NCBI GenBank assembly: GCA_947464585.1
Contig: CANHYS010000135.1
Coordinates: 1 to 6,342, forward strand
From: Planctomycetaceae bacterium
GTDB taxonomy: Bacteria; Planctomycetota; Planctomycetia; Pirellulales; UBA1268
Direction of reading: 5' to 3'
DNA length: 6,342 bases
Shown here: one piece after another, positions 2,885 to 6,342 of the stretch
Layout: each line of letters starts with the position of its first letter
Position numbering within the stretch: position 1 is the stretch's first letter
The notes under the pieces: model-generated
Databases searched by the model: none
What the model saw: only the letters and a program-made list of their open reading frames with translations
Told to the model about the DNA's origin: nothing
Translations under genes and position numbers: made by a program

Positions 2885-3973
2885 ATGCGGGCAGCCATCA
2901 TCGGCATCGGGGCGATCGCGAAGATGCACGCGCGGGCCCTCGGCGACATCGACGGCGTTGAACTCGTGGCGGCAACCTGCCGCACCGAGGAGAAGGGACG
3001 GGCGTTCGGGCAGGAGTTCGGCTGCACCTGGTATGCCGATGCCGACTCCATGCTCAAGGCGGAGCGGCCCGATTTCGTCACGGTGGCCACCCCATCCGGC
3101 GCGCACCTCGACGCCGTGCTCGCTGCCGCCCGGCACGGCGTGCACGTGATCTGCGAGAAGCCGCTCGAGATCTCGCTCGAACGGATCGACGAGATGCTGA
3201 TCGCGACGAGGCAGGCCGGCATCACGCTCGGTGCCATCTTCCCGCAACGGTTCAATCCCGTGGTGCAGACGGTGCACGAGGCCGCGGCGGCCGGCCGCTT
3301 CGGCCCGCTGGCGATCGCCGCCAGCTACGTGCCGTGGTGGCGGGACGACGCCTACTACGGCCCGGGCCGCTGGCAGGGCACCAAGGCGCTCGATGGCGGC
3401 GGTGCCGTCATGAACCAGTCGATCCACGGCGTCGACGCGGTGCAGTGGATCGCCGGTGCCTCGATGCCCGAACTCGCGCCGGGCGAGAATCCGGTCGAGA
3501 GTGTCGTGGCGTTGACTGCCGTGCGCTCGCACGACGTGAAGCGGTTGGAGGTGGAGGATACCTGCGTGGCGATCCTGCGATTCAAGAACGGCGGACTCGG
3601 GCAGTTGCTGGCTGCAACGAGCCTCTATCCGGGGCAACTGCGACGGTTTCTCTTCGGGGGCCGCGACGGCACCGCGGAGATCCTGGAGGAACAGCTGACC
3701 ACCTGGCGGTTTCGCGAGGAGGCGGCTGCCGACGCGGCCACGCGGGAACGGTTCGGCGGGGCGAGTGGCACGTCGGGAGGCGCCGCGGATCCGATGGCGA
3801 TCAACTACTCCTGCCACACCCGCAACTTCGAGGACTTCATCACCGCCCTCAGATCCGGTCGGGCTCCCGCGCTCGACGGTCTCGAGGGCCGCAAGGCGGT
3901 GGCGATCGTGGAAGCCTGCTATGAGTCGGCTCGCACCGGACGGTCCGCGGCGGTCCGCGAGTCACCCCGATGA
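2885..3973 (+). CDS. Gfo/Idh/MocA family NAD(P)-dependent oxidoreductase
   Basis: The 362-residue product is a cytoplasmic dehydrogenase-type enzyme of the family that oxidises or reduces sugars, inositols and their derivatives. The N-terminal Rossmann fold opens with the dinucleotide-binding GIGAIA (7-12) and continues through VATPSGAH (67-74) to the family signature EKP (91-93), whose lysine is K92. The C-terminal substrate domain carries W163-Q-G-T and DGGGAVMNQSIHGVD (170-184), with the conserved histidine H181 and aspartate D184. Length is normal and no signal peptide is seen, unlike the many Tat-exported planctomycete relatives. It is divergent from the DUF6807 gene and its stop codon overlaps the start of the TOPRIM gene. 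The substrate cannot be named from sequence. Confidence 0.93.
   Translation: MRAAIIGIGAIAKMHARALGDIDGVELVAATCRTEEKGRAFGQEFGCTWYADADSMLKAERPDFVTVATPSGAHLDAVLAAARHGVHVICEKPLEISLERIDEMLIATRQAGITLGAIFPQRFNPVVQTVHEAAAAGRFGPLAIAASYVPWWRDDAYYGPGRWQGTKALDGGGAVMNQSIHGVDAVQWIAGASMPELAPGENPVESVVALTAVRSHDVKRLEVEDTCVAILRFKNGGLGQLLAATSLYPGQLRRFLFGGRDGTAEILEEQLTTWRFREEAAADAATRERFGGASGTSGGAADPMAINYSCHTRNFEDFITALRSGRAPALDGLEGRKAVAIVEACYESARTGRSAAVRESPR
3970..3973 (+). promoter_or_regulatory. ATGA stop/start overlap coupling oxidoreductase and TOPRIM genes
   Basis: The TGA of the oxidoreductase (3971-3973) overlaps the ATG of the TOPRIM gene (3970-3972). With no purine-rich site upstream, re-initiation by ribosomes finishing the first gene is the likely way the second is translated. 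Confidence 0.7.
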
Positions 3974-4653
3974 CCAGGCCGTTTCCCTCGGGGCCGGTAA
4001 AGCTCGACGACTGTGCGCGGCATGGAGCAGGGCCGCATGCGGCGATGGGAGCCACGCCGGAACTGTTCGTGGTGGAGGGAGAGTCGGCGGCGCTGGCGGT
4101 GACGCGGGTCCGCGATGCTACGAACCAGGCGGTGCTCGCGATGCAGGGCAAGCCGCTCAATGCCATCAAGGCGACAGAGAAGAAACTGGCGGCGCACCCG
4201 CTCTTCACGGCGCTGACAGACAGCCTCGGCACAGGCCGGGGCGACGTGTTCGATCTGGCAAGGCTCCGGTATGCGCGGGTGCTCTTGCTGATGGATCCCG
4301 ATGCCGACGGCATCCACTGTGGCGTGCTGATGCTGATGTTCTTCCACCGTTGGATGCGGCCGCTGCTCGACGCCGGCCATGTCGAGATCGTTCGGCCGCC
4401 GTGGGGCGAGGTGGTGCCGGCGGACGGCGGGCCACCGCGGCATGCCTGCTCCGAGGAGGAGTTTCAGGCCGTTTCCGATGCTGTCCGTGCACGGGGGCCG
4501 GCGACAGCCCGGCGGTTTCGGGGGCTGGCGGCCATCGAGCCGCAGTTGTTGCTCGAGACCTGCATCGCCCCGGCCACGCGGCGGACCGATCGGATCAGCA
4601 CTGCCGAGGCCGCGGCGATGATCGAGGTGTTTGGGTCGCTCGACGGCTTGTGA
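3970..4653 (+). CDS. Stand-alone TOPRIM protein equal to the C-terminal half of GyrB/ParE
   Basis: The 227-residue product aligns by eye with type IIA topoisomerase subunit B, from just before the LPGKLADC-like segment (here KLDDC, 11-15) to the tail. TOPRIM motifs are ELFVVEGESA (31-40, catalytic-type E36), QAVLAMQGKPLNA (53-65), LGTGRGDVFDLARLRY (86-101) and DPDADG (109-114), so all three metal-binding aspartates remain. GHVEIVRPP (136-144) matches GyrB GHVYIAQPP. RRFRGLAAIEP (181-191) and LLLETCIAPATRR (193-205) match the RYKGLGEMNPEQLWETTM tail. The GHKL ATPase and transducer domains are absent. It cannot be a simple frameshift remnant, because the upstream DNA encodes an intact oxidoreductase. 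The start ATG overlaps that gene's TGA and no Shine-Dalgarno is visible, which suggests translational coupling. It could be a GyrA-binding modulator, a TOPRIM nuclease or a decaying paralogue. Confidence 0.85.
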   Translation: MTRPFPSGPVKLDDCARHGAGPHAAMGATPELFVVEGESAALAVTRVRDATNQAVLAMQGKPLNAIKATEKKLAAHPLFTALTDSLGTGRGDVFDLARLRYARVLLLMDPDADGIHCGVLMLMFFHRWMRPLLDAGHVEIVRPPWGEVVPADGGPPRHACSEEEFQAVSDAVRARGPATARRFRGLAAIEPQLLLETCIAPATRRTDRISTAEAAAMIEVFGSLDGL

Positions 4654-4674: not shown

Positions 4675-6147
4675 CTACGGGCTGTTGGTCAACGGACGGC
4701 CGACGAGGCCTGCGTCGGTCGCCTGGACGAGCAGGTAGGTGTTGCGGCCATCGGACACCGTGACGGTCTGGGGAACGGGCTGGCCGAATGGCCGTCCCTG
4801 GCGATCGAGTGGCCGCAGTTGGAGCGTGTGTGTGCCGACGGGCAATTCCAGTCGCATCGTCTGGATGCGGTCGGGCAGGAGGCTCCAGCATCTCGTGTCG
4901 GCGTTTTCTGTTGCCTCCCAGGCAATGCCCGCCACGTCGAGGGCCAGCGACGGCAGCCCATCCCGCATGCCAAGCCCCTGCTTGACGCCGTAGATCGTTC
5001 CTTTTTTGACGGCGCGGCGGGCCACGGCCCGTGCGAGGGCATACGGCAGCACCGCCTCCTGCTGCCGGAGGGCCATCTGCGAGATGTCGGTGATCGTTTC
5101 CGTCTGCCCCGCCGCCCAGTCGCCCACCGCCACCTGCACGCTCCCGACGGCGCCCGGCGCCGCGACGATGCGCGGCACCTTGATCGGCGCGACCGTGGGC
5201 GGGAGGGTGGTTCCGAGTTGCGTGCTCAGGACCTGATCGGCGATCAGGAGCGACGTGCTCGTCGGCATCTCCTCCACCTCCGCCTTGAACGGCCCGTGGC
5301 CGACCATCGCAAAGACGTGCACCACCCCGTGGCCACGGTTTGAGTGGCTGCCGCCTGCGGCCCGCGCACGATGGACTCGGCCCGGCCCGAATTCGGGCTG
5401 CCAGTCGACTACCATCTGGAAATTCCTCGCGGCGTCGTCGTAGTCGCGGTGGGTCTCCTCGCGGATGATGCCGCGGAGGTAGGGAGCGAGGGCGACCTGC
5501 TGATAGGCGGCCTTGGGGTTCGTTCCGTCGGGCCTGGCTGCGTCTGCCACGATGCGCTGCTGTTTGTCGACCACCTGCAGGCTGTAGGCCTCGGCATCGT
5601 CGCCATCCTGCACGAGATTCGCGAGGGCGAGCATCGCCCGCAGCAGCACCTTCTCGTAGTCTTCGCCGTGGTAGGCCTTGGCCCCGTCGTCGCTGAGCAT
5701 GCTCCACGTGTTCTCGGCTGGGCTCTCCTCCTCGAGATGGTCGAAGCTGTCGCGAACCCGCCGCAGCATCCGTTCGGCATCGGCGGGGCGGCCGTCGGCG
5801 AGCGTGACCATGGCCCGGTCGAGCAGCAGCAGGTCTTCCTCGCCCGACTGCTGTTCAAGTTCGTGGGCGATCAGCCGGTCGGCCTCGGCGACGTCACCCC
5901 GCTGAAACGCCGCCCGCACAGGCTGCAGGCGGATCATGTGTGTCGCGCAGCCCGTCAGGGTGATCAGGGAGAGCAGGAGCAGCAGACTGGTATGAAGCCG
6001 GTGGGATTGCAGCCGGTGGGGTTGCAGCCGCCGGAACGGCAGAAGTCTCGTCGCGGGGGCGAGGATACGCCCAATGCTCCTCGAGCTTCCGCCGATTCCG
6101 GCTTCCCCTTGGGTGCGCCAGCAAAGACCTGCATGGCAGGATGCCAT
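4675..6147 (-). CDS. TPR-rich lipoprotein, COG3014-like; start uncertain
   Basis: Function is unknown. The body looks like the COG3014 type of envelope lipoprotein. Counting from ATG 6147, a hydrophobic core (SLLLLLSLI, 54-62) leads to the lipobox LTGC with Cys67. Then come TPR-like helices (about 75-250) containing WSMLSDDGAKAYHGEDYEKVLLR (148-170), a central segment with FAMVGHGPFKAE (279-290), and a C-terminal region with ARAVARRAVKKG (372-383) and ADTRCWSLLPDRIQTMRLELP (416-436). It should be exported and lipid-anchored. The start is problematic. ATG 6147 is the nearest conventional codon, but it lies inside a repeated non-coding-looking element and leaves an overlong leader. CTG at 6027 would give an ideal 26-residue lipoprotein signal. 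Neither has a ribosome-binding site. The frame stays open to the window edge at 6342. The gene ends 21 bp from the TOPRIM stop, convergently. Confidence 0.75.
   Translation of the reverse strand: MASCHAGLCWRTQGEAGIGGSSRSIGRILAPATRLLPFRRLQPHRLQSHRLHTSLLLLLSLITLTGCATHMIRLQPVRAAFQRGDVAEADRLIAHELEQQSGEEDLLLLDRAMVTLADGRPADAERMLRRVRDSFDHLEEESPAENTWSMLSDDGAKAYHGEDYEKVLLRAMLALANLVQDGDDAEAYSLQVVDKQQRIVADAARPDGTNPKAAYQQVALAPYLRGIIREETHRDYDDAARNFQMVVDWQPEFGPGRVHRARAAGGSHSNRGHGVVHVFAMVGHGPFKAEVEEMPTSTSLLIADQVLSTQLGTTLPPTVAPIKVPRIVAAPGAVGSVQVAVGDWAAGQTETITDISQMALRQQEAVLPYALARAVARRAVKKGTIYGVKQGLGMRDGLPSLALDVAGIAWEATENADTRCWSLLPDRIQTMRLELPVGTHTLQLRPLDRQGRPFGQPVPQTVTVSDGRNTYLLVQATDAGLVGRPLTNSP
6001..6030. 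repeat. 15-bp tandem repeat at the start of the lipoprotein signal peptide
   Basis: Two 15-bp units, 6001-6015 and 6016-6030, differ at one base, and a decayed third (about 5991-6000) keeps only its end. On the minus strand they encode RLQPH, RLQSH and RLHTS, the basic n-region just before the hydrophobic core. The array begins 3 bp from the end of the large direct repeat. Confidence 0.7.
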
Positions 6148-6162
6148 GCGCAGCACCAGCAA
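6034..6162. repeat. 129-bp direct repeat, copy 1
   Basis: This segment is identical, base for base, to 6214-6342. The left boundary is sharp: bases 6033 and 6213 differ. It contains several short stems: GGGCG/CGCCC (6057-6061 with 6068-6072), GCTC/GAGC near 6075-6085, and GCATGGCA/TGCCATGC (6131-6149). The minus-strand frame continues through it into the lipoprotein gene, but the peptide it would add resembles no domain I know. Likely a non-coding structured repeat. Confidence 0.85.
6131..6149. repeat. Perfect 8-bp hairpin with GGA loop
   Basis: GCATGGCA and TGCCATGC flank a 3-nt GGA loop. An alternative stem, CCTGC/GCAGG, overlaps it and would compete. It lies within repeat copy 1 and recurs exactly at 6311-6329 in copy 2. 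Confidence 0.65.
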
Positions 6163-6213: not shown

Positions 6214-6342
6214 GAACGGCAGAAGTCTCGTCGCGGGGGCGAGGATACGCCCAATGCTCCTCGAGCTTCCGCCGATTCCGGCTTCCCCTTGGGTGCGCCA
6301 GCAAAGACCTGCATGGCAGGATGCCATGCGCAGCACCAGCAA
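6214..6342. repeat. 129-bp direct repeat, copy 2 (cut by the window edge)
   Basis: This is identical to 6034-6162, offset by exactly 180 bp. The match runs to the last base, so the copy may continue and the array may have further units. The spacer between copies (6163-6213) is 51 bp. Because 180 is divisible by three, both copies are read in the same frame, which explains the artificially long open frame here. Confidence 0.85.

Follow-up and report, generated by a model that had tools for sequence, protein, structure and literature searches.

A stand-alone gyrase B-like TOPRIM protein family in Planctomycetota and some Gammaproteobacteria: a possible ATP-independent partner of GyrA

The planctomycete DNA analysed here encodes a protein of an old family with a patchy distribution, whose stand-alone members combine a TOPRIM domain with a tail and a hinge and are devoid of the ATPase and transducer domains. 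In our preferred reading, to which we assign a probability of about 0.4, this protein (hereafter SA, for stand-alone) acts as an ATP-independent cleavage half that works together with GyrA, with catalysis, GyrA binding and either relaxation without ATP or a regulated cleavage as its predicted properties. More broadly, and more tentatively, a clade of ATPase-less type IIA half-subunits present in Planctomycetota and some Gammaproteobacteria might provide GyrA or ParC with a second mode of cleavage and strand passage that needs no ATP.

The window, i.e., the whole stretch of 6,342 nucleotides that was analysed, has a GC content of 0.62-0.70 when read in 500-base steps, and it carries the following genes:

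2885..3973, + strand: oxidoreductase of the Gfo/Idh/MocA type (Pfam); its stop codon overlaps the SA start codon (ATGA)
3970..4653, + strand: SA gene, encoding a stand-alone TOPRIM-plus-tail protein of the gyrB C-terminal-half family (open reading frame, profile and PDB matches)
5' of the oxidoreductase gene in gene order, + strand: CBS/DRTGG/DHH/DHHA2 gene (Pfam)
within the window, - strand: DUF6807 gene (Pfam)
4678-5991, - strand: lipoprotein-like gene by by-eye reading, with no Pfam match

As the initial annotation had proposed, the SA reading frame is complete and runs over 227 codons from ATG to TGA. Judging from the ATGA overlap, SA and the oxidoreductase gene are probably co-transcribed; we saw no functional link between them. 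A perfect direct repeat of 129 nucleotides (window 6034-6162 and 6214-6342, spacing 180) reaches the end of the window; either it is a dispersed repeat, or the assembly produced it at the contig end.

Searches against NCBIfam returned five matches for SA, all of them to the C-terminal parts of GyrB and ParE models with profile starts at 397-418. Since the best of these, PRK05644 (positions 409-619 of 641, E 7.2e-39), scored 133.6 bits against a curated cut-off of 740 and was matched in its C-terminal part only, SA is homologous to GyrB but is not a full GyrB; the other four matches likewise fell under their curated cut-offs. In Pfam, the Toprim domain was recognized with 44 bits (cut-off 23.1) and DNA_gyraseB_C with 20.1 bits, under its cut-off of 29.8, while no match to the GHKL ATPase or transducer domains was obtained within the 227 amino acids. 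The 49 distinct PDB sequences that matched all bear the name of gyrase B, topoisomerase IV or topoisomerase 2; the top five, short chains of gyrase B, measure 242-269 amino acids (E 1e-29 to 1.3e-28). When aligned with GyrB of E. coli K-12 (L103), SA extends from just before the KLADC segment to shortly after F777 and is without both the insertion of the E. coli protein and the last GyrB residues. The alignment and the profile matches thus bear out the earlier proposal that SA covers GyrB from KLADC through TOPRIM. The following landmarks were mapped in this way:

4000..4014, + strand: KLDDC, codons 11-15, equivalent to E. coli KLADC (K406-C410), the start of the GyrB cleavage half
4075..4077, + strand: codon of E36, the metal-site glutamate in VEGESA, equivalent to E. 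coli GyrB E424
4294..4311, + strand: DPDADG, codons 109-114, with the metal-site aspartates D109 (D498), D111 (D500) and D113 (D502)
4510..4536, + strand: RRFRGLAAI hinge, codons 181-189, equivalent to QRYKGLGEM with GEM replaced
4561..4563, + strand: codon of C198, equivalent to E. coli T754; Cys in 208 of 214 aligned rows

K11, L12 and C15 of SA correspond to K406, L407 and C410 of the E. coli protein, and equivalents of its K449, H505 and R760 are present as well. The four acidic residues described in the initial annotation are indeed intact, and DPDADG replaces DADVDG as stated there, with proline in 208 of 214 rows. The RYKGLGEM-like tail was seen correctly in part: R184-G-L is the equivalent of K740-G-L, but the GEM portion is not retained. 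SA hence carries the E, D, D, D metal site of type IIA B subunits, and it covers the span of a GyrB47-like cleavage half from KLADC to the hinge, including the closing TOPRIM segment; the ATPase and transducer domains, a score at the curated level and the KGLGEM hinge are missing. Judged from its sequence, SA is type IIA topoisomerase B-like by descent and not a B subunit by the definition that we tested.

In an alignment of 214 SA rows, which includes near-duplicates, the short L063 protein and P0150, D109, D111, D113, H116, G60 and K61 are identical throughout, and E36 is present in 211 rows (two gaps and one K in P0091). P110 and C198 (208 rows each), A187 (206) and Q59 (205) are nearly constant. 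We compared 68 positions that are at least 90% conserved in 30 full-length B subunits with 74 SA rows. Twenty of them are kept in at least 90% of the SA rows, among them E36, G60, K61, N64, D109, D111, D113, G114, H116, the hinge residue G185 and R204, and the remaining 48 are relaxed or switched. Four switches are clean (A to V44, A to P110, G to A187 and T to C198). E. coli G743, E744 and T754 are replaced by A, A or S, and C, the equivalents of G743 and E744 being found in 5% and 0% of the 74 rows, respectively, and the R or K at the position of E. coli K447 is Q in most SA rows. Since the metal site is kept while 48 of 68 positions are not, the chemistry appears to have been held and other constraints of the holoenzyme loosened. 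An alignment of 55 rows contains no invariant or nearly invariant tyrosine; topoisomerase-type covalent chemistry by SA would therefore need a partner. Cysteine C15 is kept in 191 of 214 rows, and C198 takes the place of a threonine found in most full-length proteins; the two cysteines are possibly a redox or metal pair.

A search with the SA protein (candidates of 0.55-1.75 times the query length) detected 1092 homologues at E<=1e-3. The 120 of these that were listed are 182-268 amino acids long and 55-100% identical, so that orthologues of SA length are present across relatives, one of the checks that the initial annotation had called for. Where a source name is given for them, it reads gyrase/topoisomerase IV subunit B or toprim domain-containing protein, and current annotation therefore hides the family. 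Our reference relative, G001, the closest among the genomes compared, possesses an SA orthologue of 88% identity and belongs to a taxonomic family of 72 genomes. SA is carried by 39 of them (scores of at least 199 bits; two or three cut by a contig end); among the 33 without an SA match, 32 have only GyrB-type matches or pieces and one has nothing, and some of these absences may be gaps in draft genomes. The records of L002 and L004 are titled Candidatus Kuenenia stuttgartiensis, yet the genomes G002 and G004 are placed in the family of the Planctomycetaceae MAG G001; the titles look wrong.

At the level of the order, for which seven candidates per genome were scored and carriers were called by frame length and score, SA occurs in at least 77 of 396 genomes, namely the 39 of the G001 family and at least 38 others (37 called by length and score, G544 by model comparison). 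We retrieved 26 of these 38 proteins, and all 26 fall in the SA clade. A divergent form of SA (L122) is present in the planctomycete genome G643. With ten candidates per genome scored, at least one of the 294 genomes of the phylum sample, its centre genome, had an SA score; short frames in G286, G122 and G250 were dismissed as contig-cut full-length B subunits, and the sample holds a few further short frames, such as those of G223 and G078. At least two of 274 genomes of the class Gammaproteobacteria carry SA (G005 and G876). The G005 protein has 30 relatives, and in the last of them, P0150, a GyrB domain is present as well.

Among plasmids, 170 records matched; the best 15 were listed, H16 was inspected, and four of the listed matches had no annotation under the match. 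SA is present on plasmid pTs417 of Candidatus Thiodictyon syntrophicum, where a protein of 53% identity is annotated as toprim domain-containing protein (L144:8995-9675). This host is a purple sulfur bacterium, and its SA gene adjoins RNB ribonuclease, helicase and PRTRC genes. A phage origin of SA was considered and rejected: at 44 of 46 viral-contig loci the frames span at least 588 amino acids, and the remaining two, L216 (547 amino acids) and L211 (202 amino acids), are cut by the contig end, so that no stand-alone form was seen on viral contigs. SA matched 186 phage records, each with less than 60% identity and 15 of them listed, and three topoisomerase II families of PHROGs. None of 154 stretches was confirmed in the A2 scan for SA, and no PADLOC anti-phage defence family matched at E<=1.

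We built two unrooted trees of 218-224 columns from chosen subsets, in which long branches could draw the SA proteins together. The first comprised 104 rows, i.e., 30 full-length B subunits and 74 SA proteins (19 of the 36 loci of the window's group including the window itself, 26 of the 38 other order members, and 29 of the 30 relatives of the G005 protein), and it separated all full-length rows from all SA rows with a support of 100/100. The second combined 39 SA rows (37 of the previous 74 plus two) with full-length rows, of which 24 were cellular and 17 came from phage contigs; here a branch supported by 100/99 sets all SA rows apart, the Thiodictyon and G876 proteins among them. V44, P110, A187 and C198, which are common to the SA rows, support one group. 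Because the trees are unrooted, a single origin of SA is compatible with them but not proven. We discarded the explanation that ParE or GyrB of the relatives was recently truncated, given that SA stands apart from both proteins in the two trees. The pTs417 protein groups with the window's group (99/95), a placement that suggests transfer of SA between phyla.

Five loci (L001, L002, L003, L059 and L089) share the arrangement of the window, with the oxidoreductase gene upstream and a counterpart of the lipoprotein-like gene adjoining SA downstream. Each of them holds the same short gene (226-228 amino acids) and none a full-length gyrB. Other SA members have different neighbours (gene labels by eye), and no constant neighbour or operon partner emerged among the compared loci. 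Directly upstream of a gammaproteobacterial SA lies a ProQ/FinO-domain gene (79 bits; L005:7242-7904). By by-eye reading, no RNA-acting gene directly adjoins SA at G876 or at the planctomycete loci.

Complete SA frames of 211-242 amino acids, with start codons chosen by script, are found in 35 of 36 loci; the exception, L063, stops at 168 amino acids, and one stop was flagged inside the SA match of each of G348, G338 and G311. SA is under purifying selection. Compared with its five nearest orthologues, the dN/dS of the window's gene is 0.13-0.17 (L001-L003) and 0.20-0.21 (L059 and L089), far below 1. Among 35 SA genes (L005 and the truncated L063 excluded), pN is smaller than pS in 595 of 595 pairs, and the 517 pairs with a dS of 0.05-1.5 have a median dN/dS of 0.35 and a maximum of 0.64; the close pair L078-L081 gives 0.41. 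These are plain NG86 estimates, and distant pairs are near saturation. Complete frames, low dN/dS, orthologues at the same locus and wide occurrence led us to reject a pseudogene or an assembly break, and the case that the initial annotation had made against decay is strengthened by the orthologues, the locus and the dN/dS values.

The close relatives G001-G004 each possess one long GyrB and one GyrA; the suggestion that SA works in a reduced topoisomerase therefore finds no support in the sense of a replacement of normal gyrase. A main GyrB match is present in 36 of the 39 SA carriers of the G001 family (two as partial pieces); the others are G306, with a C-terminal piece only, and G316 and G354, with none. 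GyrA-type matches occur in 38 of the 39 (none in G327). Across all 72 genomes, 66 match the A-subunit family PF00521, and none has two complete matches, G348 possessing one complete match and one contig-cut extra piece. Since we found neither two complete A subunits nor a ParE-like frame of about 640 amino acids in any of the 72, topoisomerase IV seems to be absent from this family. On the question of whether full gyrB or parE genes exist elsewhere in the genome, as checked in relatives, GyrB is there, and ParE was not seen in the G001 family but is present as a full-length ParE-like frame of 630-713 amino acids in at least 30 of the 38 other SA-carrying order genomes.

We propose that SA is catalytically competent through its kept metal site and would work in trans with GyrA, whose active-site tyrosine it would use; GyrA is the sole type IIA A subunit found in the closest relatives. 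The two proteins would constitute a form of gyrase that cuts and relaxes DNA without ATP, similar to the artificial GyrA2/GyrB47-2 enzyme, which is capable of ATP-independent relaxation without the ATPase-transducer half, according to the accessible part of PMC7897471. The available part of PMC2923608 reports that the half of GyrB matched by SA forms the enzyme core with GyrA, and that an M. tuberculosis Toprim construct (448-654), tail and hinge included, was crystallised alone. Because relatives also carry a long GyrB, this mode would be accessory to gyrase and not a replacement. Borrowing of the GyrA tyrosine is the simplest reading in view of an intact metal site, no conserved tyrosine and no constant neighbour; the last is expected for a housekeeping partner, and the lack of SA in 33 of 72 family genomes (drafts) fits an accessory role. 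Against the GyrA model stand the 48 of 68 conserved full-length positions that SA does not keep, which could mean another partner or none, and the discrepancy between SA, not found in 33 of 72 draft genomes, and GyrA, found in 66.

The same pattern of conservation could be read differently. Having left the gyrase complex, SA might be an autonomous metal-dependent TOPRIM nuclease or nickase that acts on DNA or RNA by water hydrolysis, for which RNase M5 and the OLD nucleases offer a comparison in principle. Retention of the metal site amid the relaxation of most other full-length positions would suit such an enzyme, as would the lack of a conserved tyrosine and of a constant neighbour, and RNA-acting genes lie beside SA in two Gammaproteobacteria (ProQ/FinO at L005, RNB ribonuclease on the Thiodictyon plasmid). 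We regard it as somewhat unlikely but a serious alternative to the GyrA model. Against it, SA keeps counterparts of the topoisomerase B-subunit residues K449, H505, R760 and of the hinge glycine, together with the tail and hinge regions; the G876 and planctomycete loci show no adjoining RNA-acting gene by eye; and at E<=1e-3 NCBIfam and Pfam gave neither an OLD nor an RNase M5 model.

If it bound GyrA (or ParC) without catalysis, SA would instead be a regulator or a decoy, competing with GyrB for its place and lowering supercoiling under some condition, its metal site serving for binding. This idea accords with the match of SA to the half of GyrB forming the core with GyrA (PMC2923608, available part) and with its co-occurrences: of the 39 family genomes with SA, 36 also have a long GyrB, and of the 38 other order genomes at least 30 have a ParE-like protein. 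For a pure decoy, there is no obvious need to hold E36, D109, D111 and D113 constant over such divergence; we consider this reading unlikely, though a serious alternative. A decaying gyrB or parE fragment, or a remnant left after loss of topoisomerase IV, could draw on the apparent absence of that enzyme from the 72-genome family, on the early stop of L063 and on the internal stops flagged in three genomes. It is nevertheless most improbable, considering the dN/dS far below 1, the complete frames in 35 of 36 loci, the coexistence of SA with ParE-like proteins elsewhere and its position outside GyrB and ParE in either tree.

Type IIA topoisomerases are regarded as machines driven by ATP; to our knowledge, an ATP-free half-enzyme is known only as a laboratory construct or fragment. 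If a conserved natural half-subunit does operate beside complete gyrase, cells would use the cleavage core separately, with a bearing on GyrA sharing, topoisomerase IV loss and gyrase evolution; if its mode is ATP-free, one A subunit would serve two kinds of topoisomerase in the same cell. Should SA instead be a free nuclease, it would belong to a TOPRIM nuclease lineage that is new and descends from a topoisomerase. Among the matches listed, we found no description of a stand-alone family of the SA type in the open PubMed Central literature. As judged by sequence comparison, what appears to be new is the conserved natural family; the wider kind to which it belongs, the type IIA B-like proteins, was already known.

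Arabidopsis GyrB3, as described in the accessible part of PMC2845627, is without key motifs of type II enzymes and shows no binding to GyrA, whereas SA keeps the metal site. With GyrB and ParE (PRK05644, TIGR01059 and TIGR01055) SA shares homology over TOPRIM, tail and hinge and the same metal-site residues, but it lacks their ATPase and transducer domains and forms a separate group in both trees (100/100 and 100/99). RNase M5 and the OLD family possess a TOPRIM metal chemistry like that predicted for SA, and RNase M5 is also small; unlike them, SA matches topoisomerase B models, keeps tail and hinge, and has no match to their models at E<=1e-3. GyrB47 and its complex with GyrA carry the older names nu fragment and topoisomerase II'. 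GyrB47 (E. coli GyrB 393-804) is the same half of GyrB as SA, and together with GyrA it performs ATP-independent relaxation, according to the accessible part of PMC7897471. GyrB47, however, is a piece of a full subunit, while SA is an independent gene; its product has neither the insertion of E. coli GyrB nor the final part of that subunit, and residues of its hinge are switched.
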